Shown piece by piece: positions 3 to 18,463 of a stretch of 22,745 nt of DNA. The stretch is from a virus, in IMG/VR virus record IMGVR_UViG_3300034356_001228, positions 1 through 22,745 of that record; one strand, given 5' to 3'. A program made the position numbers and the translations under genes. The notes under the pieces are model-generated. The model was not told where the DNA came from, did no database searches, and saw only the letters and a list, made by a program, of their open reading frames with translations. How positions within the stretch are numbered: the first letter of the stretch is position 1; every line of letters begins with the position of its first letter.

Positions 3-293
3 CCCATGCAGCGTCTGATCACCGGCAAGCCTGGGCTCATCATCAACCGCGACTGCAAACTGCTGCGCAAAGCGCTGGCCGGTGGCTATCATTTCAAGCG
101 AATTGCTGTTGGGGCTGGCCAAGAGCGCTTTAGGGACGCGCCAAACAAGAATGAACACTCCCACATTGGCGACTCATTCGGATATTTGATGCTGGGTGGC
201 GGCGAATACAACCGGATGACCCGCACCCACCAGCTCGGCGGCAGACCCATGGGCCAGGCCAGCGCCGGGACTGACTTTGATGTGTTTGCTTAA
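3..293 (+). CDS. Terminase large subunit, C-terminal part (gene starts before the window)
   Basis: This is the end of the DNA-packaging motor subunit, which pumps phage DNA into the prohead and cuts it with its C-terminal nuclease. The visible 97 codons carry the pattern typical of the extreme C-terminus of T7-type large terminases: a GKPGLIINRDC segment, a GGYHFKR segment, then NKNEHSHIGDSFGYLMLGGG. The frame is open to the left edge, so the ATG at 6 is an internal methionine and the ATPase and nuclease centres lie outside the window. The gene ends with TAA at 291-293 and is followed by a 62-base gap holding a promoter candidate. Family assignment is by remembered sequence pattern. The position directly upstream of the structural genes agrees with it. 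Confidence 0.88.
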   Translation, partial: PMQRLITGKPGLIINRDCKLLRKALAGGYHFKRIAVGAGQERFRDAPNKNEHSHIGDSFGYLMLGGGEYNRMTRTHQLGGRPMGQASAGTDFDVFA

Positions 294-5580: not shown

Positions 5581-6435
5581 ATGAGCGTTTCTCTTTCAAA
5601 CGCCTTTGTGACACTATTTGACGCAGAGGTTAAGCAGGCATACCAAGGCAAAGCAATGCTGGTAGCTGCTGTTCGTCAGCGCCGAGGTGTCGAAGGCTCC
5701 ACTGTCAAGTTCCCTAAAGTCGGTCGCGGAGTAGCTACTGCTCGCGTCACCCAGACCGATGTCACCCCAATGAATGTTGGGTTCTCCACCGTCACCTGCA
5801 CATTGTCTGACTTCAATGCAGCCGAATACAGTGATGTGTTCAGCCAGCAAAAAGTCAACTTTGACGAGCGCTCTGAGCTTGTGCAAGTTGTCGGTAACGC
5901 AATCGGTCGCCGCCAGGATCAACTGATCCTTGATGCGCTGATCGCTGCCAGCAGCACCGGCACCGTGGCAAATTCAATTGGTGGTGCAAACACCAACATG
6001 AATATTTCCAAGCTGCGTGAAGCCGCAAAAATCTTGAACACCAAGAATGTGCCAGCCGAAGGTCGCAACATCATCATCCACGCCAATTCGTTGGCATCGA
6101 TGCTTGAGCAGACCTCCGTTACAAGCTCGGACTTCAACAGTGTTAAAGCTCTGGTTCAAGGTGAGATCAACCAATTCATGGGCTTTACATTCCATGTGCT
6201 GGGTGACCGCACTGAAGGTGGCTTGCCCATCGATGGTTCCAGTGACCGCACTCTGTTCGCATTCCACAAGGATGCGATTGGCTATGCAGAAGGTATCGCT
6301 CCAAAGACCGAGATCAACTACATCCCAGAGAAGACCAGCTATCTTGTCAATGCCCTGTTTAGCGCAGGCGCAATTGCCATCGATAGTGAAGGTATTGTAA
6401 AAATCACCGCACGCGACACAGCGGCTGCGGCTTAA
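5581..6435 (+). CDS. Major capsid protein, 284 aa
   Basis: This is the shell protein, identified by position after the scaffold and by features of HK97-fold podovirus capsids: an N-terminal helix (NAFVTLFDAEVKQAY), the basic VRQRRGVEGSTVKFPKVGRG segment that corresponds to the extended loop, a long spine-helix region around FDERSELVQVVGNAIGRRQD, and a C-terminal part with FAFHKDAIGYAEG and INYIPEKTSYLVNALFSAGA. It resembles the Bbp17/Phage_capsid_2 type group. At 284 aa it is shorter than T7 gp10A (345 aa). GAGG (5570-5573) precedes the ATG. It has its own promoter candidate and leader and is followed by a strong Shine-Dalgarno for the decoration gene, suggesting high expression. Confidence 0.93.
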   Translation: MSVSLSNAFVTLFDAEVKQAYQGKAMLVAAVRQRRGVEGSTVKFPKVGRGVATARVTQTDVTPMNVGFSTVTCTLSDFNAAEYSDVFSQQKVNFDERSELVQVVGNAIGRRQDQLILDALIAASSTGTVANSIGGANTNMNISKLREAAKILNTKNVPAEGRNIIIHANSLASMLEQTSVTSSDFNSVKALVQGEINQFMGFTFHVLGDRTEGGLPIDGSSDRTLFAFHKDAIGYAEGIAPKTEINYIPEKTSYLVNALFSAGAIAIDSEGIVKITARDTAAAA

Positions 6436-12047: not shown

Positions 12048-13976
12048 ATGGCCTACAGCCCCATTGAGAACAAGTACTTGTCAGCACTGACTGCCATGCA
12101 ATTCCCGGATGAGCCGGTTGAAGTGGCCATGCCAGAGCAAGTCGCACCCGGCACCCAGCCTGGTGATGTTCTGCTGGCCGCTGGGCCCAGCACGACAATG
12201 ACCGATGCTGGTGGTGGCCAGTCTAGAGGCACCATCAAAGCCATTGAGCAATCACGCTTTGAAAAGGCACTAGAAAACACAGGCCTGACGCTGGAGCAGG
12301 CTGGCAAGTTTCTTGACAACCTTGGCCAGGTTGATGTGCCGCTGCTGGGCAAGATCAGTCTGGCTGACTTTGTGCCGTTTGTGGGTTCGGTCAAAGAGGG
12401 CTCGCGCAGCGTGCTTGGCGATCCGCAAATGCAAGGCACGCCGATGGCCTTGCAGCAAGCAGGCACTGGTCAATCGCTCACCAAGGGCACCGGCTTTGCG
12501 CGGCAAATGAAAGAGGACGCATCTCTGGCTGCCATGGATATTGGCTTAAATATTGTGCCCACCGCAAAGCTCTTAAAAGCAGGCGGCAAGGCGCTGCTAA
12601 CAGAAACCGGCTCTCAGCTTAACCGCGCCATGATGGAGGGCACTGGGCCTCTGTCAGCTCTGGTTCCGCAAGGCGCTCGCCCGTTGTTTGCTGTTGAGCC
12701 ATCAAAATTCAATCCAAAAGTTGAGCTGCCCAAAGCGGTTGACATAGTTGCCAATAATCCAGCGTTGAACATTTATTTGCCGCAAGCACAACGCGCTCCG
12801 TCTGTAGCCTTGCGCTTGGCAAAACCAGAAATTCAAGGCACTGGCGAAAAAGGTGTTTTGACCGTTGCTGACATTGGCGTGGTTTTAGAGAAGTCGCAGC
12901 TTGCCTTGAACAAGGGCAAAACCTTGGATCCGACAAAGCCAAAAGACTTGGTCAAAATGGTTGACTCAGCAACCGCTGAAGCTGAATACCAGATGTCGCA
13001 GCCAATTACTGGCGCAACATGGTACGAAGATGATGTGTTTCAAGCGTTTGCTTTGGGCGCAAAAATTGTTCCAGAGCTTGCAACTGACGAACCATTGCGC
13101 GTGATGGCCACAGCCTTTGCGGCATCAACCAGCTACAACAAGCGAGCGTCTGAGAACTGGTCTGTCGCAATGCGCATCACTGAAAACCTGATGAAGACCG
13201 GAAAAATCCCAGCCAGAAACCCAGACAACGGCAAGTTGTGGGGCGGCACTACTGGGCCGATTATGGAGACACAGCTTAATCTGCATCAATTCATGATCAA
13301 CAGGATGGGCATGGATGGCTATGCCGAATGGCTGCTGACACCGCATACGGTCAAAGAGATTGTCAGCATGAAGGAAGCCTCTGGTTTGTATAAATCACCA
13401 AGCATTCCTGGCAAAGCAACCGATATGAAGATGGGCTCCTTCATCATGGGTGAAAAAGGCGGTGCGTTCTTCCTTAACCTTAACGGCATTAAGGAGACAA
13501 CCGCTGACAAATGGTTCACAAGAACCTACAACCGACACACTGGAACACTGACTTCTGGAAATGTGAGCGAGCAGGGTTTGATTGACTCACCGCGCAATGA
13601 ATCAGAGCGCTCGCTAATGAAAGGCTGGAACCGCTCAGTGGCCAACAATATGGGGCTGGATGAGCAGGCAAACCAAGCTGTTCTCTGGTACTACGAGCAG
13701 AGTCTGTATTACAATTTGGGCATCAAATCAGCCAGATCGGAGAGTTTCTCAGATGGAGCAAAAACCCTACTCAATGCCAGAGGAATCCCCTTCACCGATG
13801 CCGAGCTCGCTGGAGCTAGAGGCCGCAGCAATGCGGGTCAAGTTGCAGCAAAACCGCCAAGCGCTGGAGGAACAGGGGATACAGTCGGCCTCGGACAAGT
13901 TGCGCCAGCTCAACCAGCAGCAACCCCAACAAGCGTAACCGGGGGCCGTCAGGCTCCGCAATCTGGAGCTAAGTGA
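12048..13976 (+). CDS. Putative ejected virion protein with a mobile-element-type domain, 642 aa
   Basis: This gene lies between the gp15-like and gp16-like genes, so its product is probably packaged in the virion. The N-terminal 110 residues are disordered-looking. Residues about 100-160 include LLGKISLADFVPFVGSVKEG, hydrophobic and possibly membrane-active. Residues about 320-565 form a folded domain: ATAFAASTSYNKRASENWSV, then FFLNLNGIKETTADKWFTR, then QAVLWYYEQSLYYNLG. I recall this three-part pattern from uncharacterised domains of large phage and mobile-element proteins; its activity is unknown to me. The last 70 residues are Gly/Ala/Pro low complexity and use codons rare elsewhere here (AGA, GGA, CTA, GGG). 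That end overlaps a possible nested gene at 13753-13938. GAGGA precedes the ATG. Confidence 0.72.
   Translation: MAYSPIENKYLSALTAMQFPDEPVEVAMPEQVAPGTQPGDVLLAAGPSTTMTDAGGGQSRGTIKAIEQSRFEKALENTGLTLEQAGKFLDNLGQVDVPLLGKISLADFVPFVGSVKEGSRSVLGDPQMQGTPMALQQAGTGQSLTKGTGFARQMKEDASLAAMDIGLNIVPTAKLLKAGGKALLTETGSQLNRAMMEGTGPLSALVPQGARPLFAVEPSKFNPKVELPKAVDIVANNPALNIYLPQAQRAPSVALRLAKPEIQGTGEKGVLTVADIGVVLEKSQLALNKGKTLDPTKPKDLVKMVDSATAEAEYQMSQPITGATWYEDDVFQAFALGAKIVPELATDEPLRVMATAFAASTSYNKRASENWSVAMRITENLMKTGKIPARNPDNGKLWGGTTGPIMETQLNLHQFMINRMGMDGYAEWLLTPHTVKEIVSMKEASGLYKSPSIPGKATDMKMGSFIMGEKGGAFFLNLNGIKETTADKWFTRTYNRHTGTLTSGNVSEQGLIDSPRNESERSLMKGWNRSVANNMGLDEQANQAVLWYYEQSLYYNLGIKSARSESFSDGAKTLLNARGIPFTDAELAGARGRSNAGQVAAKPPSAGGTGDTVGLGQVAPAQPAATPTSVTGGRQAPQSGAK
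13753..13938 (+). CDS. Possible nested out-of-frame gene, 61 aa, helical Gln/Glu-rich protein
   Basis: In the +1 frame relative to the 642-aa gene, an ATG at 13753 follows GGAG (13739-13742, within CGGAGAG) at a workable distance of 10 bases. The product starts MEQKPYSMPEESPSPMPSSL, continues as a helix (LELEAAAMRVKLQQNRQALE) and ends with a Gln-rich stretch (LRQLNQQQPQQA). Its codons (CTG, GAG, GCC, AAG, CAG, CGC) look like those of ordinary genes in this window, whereas the host frame there uses rare codons and yields low-complexity sequence. The next gene starts 37 bases after its stop. It could instead be chance, or the trace of an old separate gene onto which the upstream frame later extended. 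Function unknown. Confidence 0.5.
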   Translation: MEQKPYSMPEESPSPMPSSLELEAAAMRVKLQQNRQALEEQGIQSASDKLRQLNQQQPQQA

Positions 13977-16855
13977 TGGCCATCGAACAGAAGTCCCTTG
14001 ATCAACGGCTTGGCCAGATCCTGCCGAGTGCTGCGCCTAGCACGCCTGCCGAGGACATCCCGCTGGAGCCCATGCCTGGGGCTGGCCCAGCCGACACAAC
14101 TGAGATGCCCGAGGTTGCTGAGATCGGCACCCCGTCCATGGAGGAGGGTGTCCAAATCGCAGGCCCAATAGACGCTGCTCTGCGCAAGCTGATCACCCGG
14201 CAAGCCACCAAGGCCGAGCGCAACCTGGTGCCCGAGGCCGCACGCATGCCCGAGGGTCAGTTGCCCGAGCCAGCCAAGGCTGGCCGCTTTAAGCTGATCC
14301 CCGAGGCTGACCAAACCCTGACTGATGAGGTTGGCCGTGCGGTCAGCCGCAGGCAGACCTTTGGCATCACCGAGGGTAAACCCGGTGGCACGCCTGATGA
14401 GCCGTTTAACCTGTCCCGCTACCAGACCGAGGATGCTGCTGCCATTGTGGGCGGCGTGGCCGATGCGCTGAACATTCGCACCAAGGCGGTCACCTTCCAA
14501 GAGATCAAGGACAAGGCTGCTGAGTCGGGCATTGGCGAGGCCTTCCTGTCGCGCCTGATCGGCACTGACGGCAAGATGATGGCCAACGCTGTCGAGACCT
14601 ACAAAGCGCTGGAGGTGCTGGAGTCCAGCGCCAACGAGCTTGACAAGTTGTTCAAGATGGTCAACAGCGGCACGGCCACCGATGTGGACAAGCTCAAGCT
14701 GCGCCAGCAGATCGCCTTCCACGGCCTGATCCAGCGCGGTGTCAAGGGCATCCAGACCGAGACAGCTCGGTCGCTGGCTGTGTTCCGTATCCCACGCGAT
14801 GGCAACGCTGCTATCGTGCGCCAGGTGATCGATGAGTACGGTGGCGACAAAAGCCTGTCTGATCTGGCTAAGTCTTATTTGACACTGGAGTCGCGAGCTG
14901 AACAGAATAAGCTGGTCGAAAAGTCGATGATGTCGAGCGTGAAAGATGTGTGGTTTAGCACCTTCATCAACGGCCTGCTGTCGTCACCAAAAACACATGT
15001 TCTTAATATTGCATCAAACAGCAGTTTTGGCTTGTATCAAATACCAGAGCGTGCGGTTGCCTCTCTGTATTCAAAATATTTACCAGCAAGTGTGCGCGAG
15101 GGACGCATGCCCAATGTGATCACAAAATGGGGCGATCTTTTGCCTGGTAGCGCTGACGAAAAAATTGCACTTGACGAAGCGCTGACCATGATCCAGTCGC
15201 TGCGCAATGGATTCTTTGAAGGATTACAGCTGGCAAGCACTGCGTTTAAAAAGAATCAGCCCAGCGATTTGATGAGCAAGATCGAGGCGCAGCGCAGCAA
15301 TACTGTCCCAGCGATCAGTTCCGCAGGTTTTGGCATTGAGCAGGACAAGTGGTTTGGCAAAGCCATCGACTACTATGGCACGGCTGTCACCCTGCCGGGT
15401 CGGATGCTATTAACTGAAGATGAGTTTTTTAAGGGTGTGCTCTATCGCATGGAGTTCAACACCCTGATTACCCGGCGCAGCAAAAAGGTCTACCGCGAGT
15501 CGCTGGACGCTGGCATGCCAGAAGCCGATGCTCTGGCCAAGGCCAAGGCAGAGACAATCAGCCTATTTGAAAACCCGCCAAGAGATCTTGACGAAGCTGC
15601 ATCTCTGTTTGCACAGAAAGGCACCTTTACTGCTGATTTGCCGCCAGTGCTCAAGTCATTGCAGAAGGCTTTTAGTAATCCTGTGCTGAAAGTAATGCAG
15701 CCGTTTTTTAAAACACCAGCCAACATTGGTTTACAGGTTGTTGAGCGCAGTCCCTTTGCGCCGCTGTCCAGCCAGTTTCGTGAAGAGATCGCCAAGGGTG
15801 GCGTGTACCGCGACATGGCATTGGCCAAGGTAACGCTGGGCAGCACCATCATGGCAACCTTTGCACTGCTGGCTGCTGAGGGAAAAATTACTGGCAGCGG
15901 CCCGGCTAAAAAAGAAGAACGAGAAGCGCTTGAGCGTACCGGATGGAAGCCTTATTCATTTAAGCCAGGCGACACCTACTACAGCTATAGCGGTATGGAG
16001 CCAATTTCTGCAATGATTGGCATTTCCGCAGATTACAACGAGTACGCCCAGCGCGAACCGGATGACAACAAAATTGAAGAAGTGTTTCTTGGTTCTGTAT
16101 ATGGCATGTATGAATACCTAGCGGAACAGCCTTACTTGCAAGGCATTGCTGACATGGCTGCATTGCTAGGCTTTGGAAAAAAAGGTGAAGAGGCTGACAT
16201 TAAGAAAACAATTGACAACGCATTTAAGCAATTGGGTGGTTTTGTAATTGGCGGTTCACCGGCTGGTGTTTACAGCTCTTTGTTTGCCGCTACTGAGCGA
16301 ATGGTCGATCCAACAAATCGTGACCCTCGCGCCAACCCAGAGTTGCCCATGGGTGTGCGCGGCTTTATGGAATCTTTTAACAGGTACAAATCACGCCTGC
16401 CTTATTTCAATGCAGACTTGCCAGAAGAATTAAATCTCTGGGGTGACCCAATGAAGTCGGGCACGGGTGCAATTTATGAAATGTTTTTGCCAACCAAGGT
16501 TTCACCAGAACAATTTTCTGAAGTCGATGATTTACTTGTGCGCATAATTTCACCAATTGGAAAGCCAGATCGCAAGATTGATGGTGTTGAATTAAGCGCA
16601 GTGCAATACAACCGATTGATCACGATCTACGGGAAAGAGCTGCCATCCAAAGATCAAATTCTTGCCACCATGCAGATGCCTGGCTTTGACCAACTGTCGC
16701 GTACTGACCAGCAAAAGTTCGTGCAGGGCGTGCACAGCAAATACATGGACATGGCCAGGAAACAGCTACTTGCAGAAAATCCAGAAATACAAGTAAAAAT
16801 TGACGAGCGTAAAGATTTAAAAAATGATCGCGTTAACTTTTACAAACCCGATTAA
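13976..16855 (+). CDS. Large internal virion / ejection protein (T7 gp16 position), 959 aa
   Basis: This is the largest gene, in the place of T7 gp16 (1318 aa), which spans the inner membrane during DNA entry. Residues 1-130 are Pro/Ala/Glu-rich. A characteristic segment begins at W326 (FSTFINGLLSSPKTHVLNIA), and near 567-585 comes NPVLKVMQPFFKTPANI; both patterns recur in ejection proteins of many podoviruses. Residues about 613-635 (LGSTIMATFALLAAEG) are hydrophobic and may insert in a membrane. I see no lytic transglycosylase motif such as the one at the start of T7 gp16. GGAG precedes ATG 13976, which shares a base with the previous stop (TGATG); an in-frame GTG at 13973 is less likely. 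GC content falls from 72% (14221-14280) to 37% (16501-16560) within the gene. Confidence 0.82.
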   Translation: MAIEQKSLDQRLGQILPSAAPSTPAEDIPLEPMPGAGPADTTEMPEVAEIGTPSMEEGVQIAGPIDAALRKLITRQATKAERNLVPEAARMPEGQLPEPAKAGRFKLIPEADQTLTDEVGRAVSRRQTFGITEGKPGGTPDEPFNLSRYQTEDAAAIVGGVADALNIRTKAVTFQEIKDKAAESGIGEAFLSRLIGTDGKMMANAVETYKALEVLESSANELDKLFKMVNSGTATDVDKLKLRQQIAFHGLIQRGVKGIQTETARSLAVFRIPRDGNAAIVRQVIDEYGGDKSLSDLAKSYLTLESRAEQNKLVEKSMMSSVKDVWFSTFINGLLSSPKTHVLNIASNSSFGLYQIPERAVASLYSKYLPASVREGRMPNVITKWGDLLPGSADEKIALDEALTMIQSLRNGFFEGLQLASTAFKKNQPSDLMSKIEAQRSNTVPAISSAGFGIEQDKWFGKAIDYYGTAVTLPGRMLLTEDEFFKGVLYRMEFNTLITRRSKKVYRESLDAGMPEADALAKAKAETISLFENPPRDLDEAASLFAQKGTFTADLPPVLKSLQKAFSNPVLKVMQPFFKTPANIGLQVVERSPFAPLSSQFREEIAKGGVYRDMALAKVTLGSTIMATFALLAAEGKITGSGPAKKEEREALERTGWKPYSFKPGDTYYSYSGMEPISAMIGISADYNEYAQREPDDNKIEEVFLGSVYGMYEYLAEQPYLQGIADMAALLGFGKKGEEADIKKTIDNAFKQLGGFVIGGSPAGVYSSLFAATERMVDPTNRDPRANPELPMGVRGFMESFNRYKSRLPYFNADLPEELNLWGDPMKSGTGAIYEMFLPTKVSPEQFSEVDDLLVRIISPIGKPDRKIDGVELSAVQYNRLITIYGKELPSKDQILATMQMPGFDQLSRTDQQKFVQGVHSKYMDMARKQLLAENPEIQVKIDERKDLKNDRVNFYKPD

Positions 16856-16888: not shown

Positions 16889-18463
16889 ATGGCCATCCCA
16901 ATCAGCAATGTCACCCGCCGAGCAGTCTACGCACCCAGTGGCACTGGTGGCATTGGCCCCTATGCGTTCACCTTTGAGATCCTGGCCAACACCGACATTG
17001 CCGTGTACAAGGACGATGTACTGCTGACGCTGACCACTCACTACACTGTGACGATCAACGCCAACGGCACCGGCTCGGTGACCATCACAGCCACCGGCTT
17101 GGCGCTGGCACCAACCTCGCCAACCCAGTATGCCATTGTCGGCAACCGCACTATTGCCAGGGCAACCGACTTCACAACCGGCGGCGACTTCTTTGCCAAC
17201 ACGCTCAATGACGAGCTGGATCAGCAGACCATCTTTGCCCAGCAGAATGCCGAGGGCTTGGTCAGGGCGCTGTCAGCTCCACAGACAGACCCGACCAACA
17301 TCAACATGACCTTGCCGCTTGCATCACTGCGAGCCAACAAGACGCTGGGTTTTGATGCCAATGGCAACCCTGCACTGGGCGAAACCTTGGGCACCAACCG
17401 TGGCAACTGGGCTGCTAGCACTGTCTACTATGTGCGAGACATTGCAAAGGACACCACCACCAACAACATTTTCCAAGTCATCACGGCGCATACCTCAAGC
17501 GGGGCTTTGCCGATTACCACCAACGCTGACTCTGCAAAGTGGACACTGCTGGTGGATGCGGCATCAGCAACAACCTCGGCTACCAACGCAGCGGCCTCTG
17601 CCTCAGCAGCCAGCACATCAGCCAGCAATGCATCCACCTCGGCCAGCAATGCAAGCACCAGCGCAAGCAATGCGTCCAGCTCTGCCTCTGCCGCAAGCAC
17701 AAGCGCCAGCAATGCAGCCACAGCACAGACCGCTGCCGAGGCTGCACGCGACTCAGCCTTGGCTGCGTATGACAACTTTGATGATCGCTACCTTGGCCCC
17801 AAAGCAAGCGATCCCACGCTAGACAATGACGGCAACGCTTTGCTTGCTGGTTCCCTGTACTACAACACTGTGGTGCCAGAGATGCGCCTGTACACAGGCT
17901 CTGCTTGGGTGGCCGCTTATGTCTCTGGTGCTGCGTATCTGCTCACTTCAAACAACCTGTCTGAGCTGACGGCAACTGCGTCTACTGCTAGGACAAACCT
18001 TGGCTTGGCCATTGGCACCAATGTCCAGGCGTGGGACGCTGATCTGGACACATGGGCAACTAAGACTGCACCATCTGGGACTGTTGTTGGCACAAGCGAT
18101 ACCCAGACACTGACCAACAAGACACTGACAAACCCAACTGTCACCAACTATGTGGAGACTGTGGTCGCCATTGGTAACTCTGGCACATCACAAACCCTGT
18201 CACTGACCAACGGCACTGTGCAGACTGTGACCATGACGGGCAACTGCACATTCACCATGCCCACGGCCACGGCTGGCAAGTCATTCATTCTGATCTGCAC
18301 TCAGGACGCTACAGGGTCGCGCACAGCGGTGTTCACATCGGTCAAGTTCCCTGGCGGTACTGCCCCGACACTGACCACCACGGCCACCACGGGGGTTGAC
18401 ATTTTGACCTTTGTGGCAAACGGCACATCTTGGTTTGGCACTTACGCACAGGCATTTGCATAA
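16889..18463 (+). CDS. Tail fibre protein with T7-type N-terminal domain, 524 aa
   Basis: The first 140 residues match the virion-attachment domain of T7-type tail fibres: ISNVTRRAVYAPSGTGGIGP, YAFTFEILANTDIAVYKDD, then TDFTTGGDFFANTLNDELDQ. The fibre should bind the tail and carry receptor-binding parts. Residues 223-295 are an Ala/Ser/Thr/Asn rod with five STSASNA-type heptads (17612-17716). A folded segment follows, with FDDRYLGPKASDPTLDNDGN and LYYNTVVPEMRLYTGSAWV, a pattern common in phage fibres. The C-terminal part has NNLSELTATASTARTNLGLA and TLTNKTLTNPTV repeats, then a beta-rich end. It has no visible chaperone or peptidase domain. AAGGA precedes the ATG. It overlaps the adhesin gene by one base (TAATG). 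Confidence 0.9.
   Translation: MAIPISNVTRRAVYAPSGTGGIGPYAFTFEILANTDIAVYKDDVLLTLTTHYTVTINANGTGSVTITATGLALAPTSPTQYAIVGNRTIARATDFTTGGDFFANTLNDELDQQTIFAQQNAEGLVRALSAPQTDPTNINMTLPLASLRANKTLGFDANGNPALGETLGTNRGNWAASTVYYVRDIAKDTTTNNIFQVITAHTSSGALPITTNADSAKWTLLVDAASATTSATNAAASASAASTSASNASTSASNASTSASNASSSASAASTSASNAATAQTAAEAARDSALAAYDNFDDRYLGPKASDPTLDNDGNALLAGSLYYNTVVPEMRLYTGSAWVAAYVSGAAYLLTSNNLSELTATASTARTNLGLAIGTNVQAWDADLDTWATKTAPSGTVVGTSDTQTLTNKTLTNPTVTNYVETVVAIGNSGTSQTLSLTNGTVQTVTMTGNCTFTMPTATAGKSFILICTQDATGSRTAVFTSVKFPGGTAPTLTTTATTGVDILTFVANGTSWFGTYAQAFA
17612..17716 (+). repeat. Five tandem 21-base repeats in the tail fibre gene
   Basis: Five in-frame 21-base units encode STSASNA, STSASNA, STSASNA, SSSASAA and STSASNA. 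Synonymous differences between units show they are not fresh copies. They form the Ala/Ser rod of the fibre and could change rod length by recombination. Confidence 0.85.

Follow-up and report, generated by a model that had tools for sequence, protein, structure and literature searches.

An unannotated frame within an ejection-type gene

The window analysed here, a 22,745-nt stretch of viral DNA (IMG/VR record IMGVR_UViG_3300034356_001228), is a T7-like structural module that comprises a portal/head-tail adaptor, an assembly protein, the capsid, tail proteins, ejection-type genes and a tail fibre. Proteins of 203 aa and 600 aa occupy the gp14 and gp15 positions and are followed by a 642-aa gene, a gp16-like protein and the tail fibre. 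The 642-aa protein matched no PHROG or Pfam family; its residues 254–501 are homologous (28%) to part of a 3125-aa protein of Limnohabitans phage DC33. An earlier reading of the letters alone (hereafter, the sequence-only reading) had proposed that a small gene is hidden near the end of this long gene, and a 61-aa frame is indeed present exactly where that reading had placed it, in frame +1 relative to the long gene, with its ATG at 13753 and its TAA stop at 13936–13938. The features of the locus are as follows.

12048–13976, plus strand: host (long) frame for a 642-aa protein of internal-virion/ejection type, flanked by the gp15-position and gp16-like genes
13660–13752, plus strand: in-frame stretch upstream of the small frame, for a potential 92-aa version (rejected; stops in relatives)
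13686–13709, plus strand: long-frame anchor motif, WYYEQSLY
13739–13744, plus strand: Shine-Dalgarno sequence GGAGAG, 8 nt 5′ of the small-gene ATG
13753–13938, plus strand: overlapping +1-frame gene, 61 aa, MEQKPYSMPEESPSPMPSSLELEAAAMRVKLQQNRQALEEQGIQSASDKLRQLNQQQPQQA followed by the stop (open frame, synonymous trough, small-frame dN/dS)
13801–13872, plus strand: segment for a conserved helix, residues 17–40, including the module common with the marine clade (AlphaFold2, hhalign)
13974–13978, plus strand: TGATG junction, in which the long-frame stop overlaps the ATG of the next gene (13976)
13976–16855, plus strand: the gene that follows, for a gp16-like internal virion protein (match to the internal virion family phrog_6651, E 9e-36); a start at GTG 13973 would make it 960 aa long

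Given the amino acids of the long frame, the probability that the +1 frame is open is about 0.05–0.07, so the small ORF alone is not improbable, and five other +1 or +2 ORFs of at least 61 aa lie inside long genes of the window. Since ORF length by itself is within chance, conservation across relatives is the deciding evidence. As a negative control we used a 117-aa +1 ORF in the capsid gene (window 6047–6400), which had a synonymous ratio of 1.07 and was open in 16 of 51 relatives and broken in the other 35. A 155-aa +1 ORF at window 17355–17822, within the Ser/Ala-repeat tail fibre gene, is probably a by-product of the repeats.

The small frame is conserved and under selection in the freshwater clade

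Searches with the 642-aa protein (40 viral loci) and with the small protein (33 loci) yielded set A, the 26 distinct sequences of the window's freshwater clade that cover the site, window included. All loci share descent, and locus counts are not independent events. The small frame was open in 26/26 of these sequences, and no relative stopped it while keeping the long frame. In the first 57 codons, the remaining unannotated frames (+2 and antisense) were mostly closed, with 22–99 stops each, summed. Across set A the small protein (LELEAAAMRVKLQQNRQAL...) shows strong conservation, while the tail of the long frame diverges.

The start signals are preserved as well. The Shine-Dalgarno-like GGAG singled out by the sequence-only reading is part of a GGAGAG whose core is kept in every set A sequence; in fact, TCGGAGAG and the ATG of the small gene are identical across 26/26 distinct relatives, with the long frame reading TCG-GAG-AG(T/C) at this site in all of them. 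A longer version starting at ATG 13660 (92 aa) was rejected, as many relatives have in-frame stops 9–33 codons 5′ of the ATG at 13753.

To measure constraint, we counted pairwise codon differences at identical long-frame amino acids and compared them with the number expected from the remainder of the gene. This synonymous-constraint check, which the sequence-only reading had suggested, gave an observed/expected ratio of 0.275 over the overlap, as compared to 0.955–1.081 for 240 upstream windows of equal length (set A). An OLGenie-like count, in which changes were split by their effect in both frames, located the constraint in the small frame. Where a change was silent in the small frame, it was tolerated whatever its long-frame effect (dNS 0.475, dSS 0.72), whereas changes that altered the small frame were disfavoured (dNN 0.154, dSN 0.188). 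The resulting small-frame dN/dS was 0.32 for dNN/dNS (bootstrap 0.23–0.44) and 0.26 for dSN/dSS (bootstrap 0.13–0.71). Long-frame dN/dS within the overlap was 0.82 and 0.66; upstream, where there is no overlapped gene, it was 0.145 and the +1 statistic was 0.77/0.65. As dN/dS in the overlap is lower for the small frame than for the long one, it is the annotated frame that is under the weaker constraint there, and the Gly/Ala/Pro low complexity ascribed to it in that stretch is matched by weak constraint.

The embedded gene recurs in distant podovirus clades

Three loci (L029–L031) encode a homologue of the 642-aa protein that is only about 34% identical, and each has a +1 ORF at the corresponding site. 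Searches from these gathered 38 distinct marine loci (set B), every one of which has an embedded open +1 gene (38/38; nearly all 70–77 aa) preceded by a Shine-Dalgarno sequence. Taking sets A and B together, the SD-like core was present in 26/26 and 38/38 loci (64/64), as compared to 9/179 and 74/292 control out-of-frame ATGs, and the start codon was ATG in 61 loci and GTG in three. The synonymous ratio of set B was 0.464 over the small gene and about 1 on either side.

Apart from chance hits, tblastn with the small proteins matched a single named phage, Limnohabitans phage DC33 (PQ492659), in which the small gene is present, unannotated, inside the 3125-aa gene. Its clade (set D) has the small gene in 56 of 66 distinct loci, with a synonymous ratio of 0.29–0.77 over it and about 1 elsewhere. 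A third clade, the giant-gene clade C2, showed ratios of 0.48–0.71 at the same place, and in two of its loci the small gene ends in the C-terminal motif of the marine and DC33 small proteins. In giant-gene clade C1, which aligned poorly, the dip was mild only (0.72–0.9). The search for homologues of the 61-aa product thus led to related embedded +1 genes well beyond the freshwater clade. Hits in Prochlorococcus phage P-SCSP1 (tblastn, E 6) lie antisense to annotated genes and were discarded as chance.

Side observations came from another giant-gene clade (loci L200–L245), in which other +1 ORFs follow the anchor motif, for example MPVDQESSLFSMTPEQHKKMVEQARAEFLSAK and a second type, ETEEDxIRAEALRRLKVR, with a mild synonymous dip only. 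These are possibly further embedded genes. In L083–L085 (L083:4938-5270), the small protein is devoid of the HPGLT module and is extended instead by the ETEEDxIRAEALRRLKVR tail of the giant-gene-clade +1 ORFs, which points to module exchange.

Stand-alone relatives of the small gene occur, rarely, in two marine alphaproteobacterial genomes:

L198:4956–5168: stand-alone relative in SAG AG-390-A18, near rmuC
L199:633–851 and 51–185 (minus strand): stand-alone relatives in MAG UBA4588, two copies

The clearest of them has its own Shine-Dalgarno sequence. In the family of the L198 genome, one of 121 genomes searched had a stand-alone relative and the other 120 had none. The relatives are perhaps phage-derived. 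These stand-alone copies are rare and give no direction to the history of the overlap.

A selected, separately initiated protein best accounts for the data

That the frame is open by chance, as a stop-free by-product of Gly/Ala/Pro low-complexity sequence with no product, would agree with the not so tiny probability of an open frame and with the other long out-of-frame ORFs of the window, but is statistically refuted already by the synonymous troughs in separate clades, the frame-specific dN/dS, the 64/64 SD-like cores and a small protein conserved where the long frame diverges, the capsid +1 ORF typifying what chance produces. Hardly more credible is a constraint on RNA or DNA, such as a secondary structure or regulatory site, in place of protein. 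Any overlapping element reduces synonymous change; here, however, the signal shows a triplet periodicity that follows the +1 frame, small-frame-silent changes are frequent even if they alter the long protein, the constraint extends over the ORF, and the frame is retained in loci that differ in length. Entry into the small frame by +1 frameshifting, which would create a long-frame/small-frame fusion, fits the shared strand and the +1 relation, and phages are known to make frameshifted tail proteins. We regard it as very improbable, given that 25 of the 38 marine loci have an in-frame stop 0–3 codons 5′ of the small start and that an SD and an ATG or GTG are found in all.

We therefore read 13753–13938 as a true, selected, unannotated overlapping gene that would yield a separate protein by internal initiation, with a probability of about 0.9. 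The hidden gene proposed by the sequence-only reading is upheld by the frame open in 26/26 relatives, the 0.275 ratio, the dN/dS of about 0.3 and the kept Shine-Dalgarno sequence. The DNA of related viruses from lakes and oceans, well above a hundred of them, shows a gene family that evolution has preserved and current annotations miss.

The mechanism that we propose starts from the late structural mRNA. Some ribosomes would read through the 642-aa ejection-type gene, and others would start internally at the strong Shine-Dalgarno sequence and ATG to produce a separate, small, soluble helical protein from the +1 frame. Phages are known to have embedded +1 genes: gene E within D of phiX174 and Rz1 within Rz of lambda are completely embedded, encode lysis proteins and are of proven function. 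The window gene resembles them in its separate +1 product, putative internal initiation and own Shine-Dalgarno sequence. In contrast to these, the window protein has predicted helices only and neither a lipobox nor any Cys, such that the lipobox cysteine of an Rz1-type embedded spanin is absent, and its gene lies in a core/ejection gene. What is new is a family found in none of the libraries searched, unusually broad in its distribution, with module exchange at a fixed site.

The small proteins are modular

The helical character foreseen for the Gln/Glu-rich product was supported by structure prediction. AlphaFold2 modelled residues 17–40 of the window protein as a confident helix, with pLDDT about 86–92 over most of it, and one marine small protein as three helices. 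For neither was there a confident overall fold (pTM 0.41 and 0.29, respectively); such isolated helices would fit a small protein that requires a partner.

Marine and DC33 small proteins have in common a C-terminal module, DPIExAMxNHPGLTREExxxMxxxGF, ending at the stop codon (hhalign probability 97.7, E 2e-12), and an HMM built without the DC33 protein retrieved it at E 2e-5. Window and marine proteins have in common an N-terminal helix, AMxxKLxxNR (hhalign A11 versus A9; probability 85.5, E 5.7e-6, 16 columns), and their genes lie at the same site and in the same frame. The window-marine kinship is founded on a 16-residue module and an identical position. With an HMM (A8) built without window-clade members, the window frame ranked first among the non-members, its E of 0.019 being slightly above the threshold for inclusion. 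A direct hhalign comparison of the window and DC33 small proteins found no homology (probability 0.8); the two are tied only via set B, which shares its C-terminal module with the DC33 clade. Judged by sequence, the small proteins are a mosaic of N- and C-terminal modules.

Searches of Pfam, PHROG, NCBIfam and PDB gave no family that we accepted for the small proteins, and no function-bearing homologue was found. PHROG matches (E 0.002–0.4) were scattered across different families, PDB matches (E 0.3–0.6) were of no use, and a BFVD fold search returned no match at E 0.001 or better. The absence of the small-gene family from the libraries probably arises because gene callers discard overlapped frames. 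Likewise, open-licence papers held no report of this overlap, which is weak evidence. A well-conserved overlapping gene can evidently last across very divergent phage clades while absent from all family libraries searched.

History of the overlap

The small gene of the window begins 67 nt after the W of WYYEQSLY; in marine loci with the anchor WYYEQxLY it mostly begins 82 nt after the W. In the marine and DC33 clades, it is fully embedded, with the long frame running about 190–200 codons or far more beyond it and including a conserved domain. Residues 522–842 of a marine long frame align with residues 1192–1553 of the DC33 protein (33%, E 7e-41), a stretch that spans and follows the small gene. 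In the window, the long frame stops 12 codons after the small gene. The sequence-only reading had proposed that the small gene is the older one and that the upstream frame later grew over it. Both outgroups speak against such an order: as their long frames continue far past the small gene, the ending in the window clade is more simply a truncation, and the window long frame looks like the truncated form of a longer ancestral one.

The codon usage of the two frames, the basis for the proposed ages, pointed the other way in the window alone. A CAI-like index trained on the window's long genes was 0.606 for the small frame and 0.446 for the long frame where the two overlap, the latter being lower than the 1st percentile (0.545) of 147 reference windows of 61 codons; GGA made up 6 of 62 long-frame codons there, whereas its frequency in the window's long genes is 3.9 per 1000. 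The earlier contrast between common small-frame and rare long-frame codons thus held in the window and was weak clade-wide, with the small frame better in 13 of 25 sequences, and it does not settle the gene-age polarity. Overprinted de novo viral genes (reviewed in PMC8227390) are similar in their +1 overlap of the internal type; here, by contrast, birth order is unassignable because codon usage is equivocal clade-wide and both frames share one distribution.

As we reconstruct it, a small-gene family has remained embedded at one inter-domain linker of an ejection-type gene across several podovirus clades. The ancestral protein would have begun with an amphipathic helix, followed by a Ser/Pro linker and then, at the C terminus, by a helical hairpin with HPGLTREExxxMxxxGF as its end. 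The freshwater clade lacks both this C-terminal module and the downstream domain of the long frame, and a single deletion could explain the two losses. At the junction of the long frame with the next gene, 25 of 26 set A sequences have TAATG or TGATG, which suggests translational coupling; the long frame is probably kept open to its TGATG stop for this purpose. The locus offers a natural example of an overlap where constraint is stronger on the embedded gene than on the host frame, which seems to be in decay.

Possible functions

Of the small T7 virion proteins gp6.7 and gp7.3, the first belongs to the core and the second is a scaffold for assembly (PMC11784390). As small proteins working with the internal core and tail they are our favoured functional analogy, the difference being that genes 6.7 and 7.3 are separate and located elsewhere. 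From this analogy and the gene neighbourhood, our tentative guess, held at somewhat less than even odds, is that the small protein may either form part of the internal core/ejection machine or help to assemble it. This modest rating reflects that homology to gp6.7 and gp7.3 was tested and not found: comparisons with T7 gp6.7, gp7.3 and gp16 gave no similarity (hhalign probability below 1 against gp6.7).

The main rival accepts the small gene as real and makes its product a late-expressed host-takeover or host-interaction factor unrelated to the virion. The stand-alone relatives in two alphaproteobacterial genomes, one near rmuC, and the missing likeness to gp6.7 or gp7.3 favour this rival; every embedded locus, however, is at a fixed position in an ejection-type gene that belongs to the late structural operon, and we deem a host factor possible yet rather unlikely. 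The most far-reaching form of the core/ejection reading, in which an ancient modular family, embedded at a fixed linker, always in +1, with modules swapped between clades, has escaped annotation and is an essential component of DNA ejection, strikes us as doubtful.

The small protein may be regarded as a candidate component added to the podovirus ejection apparatus, with Limnohabitans phage DC33 as the cultured member. DC33 (PQ492659.1, L041) is filed under Inoviridae; its 39-kb genome has large podovirus-type structural genes homologous to the window, and the taxonomy line looks wrong.
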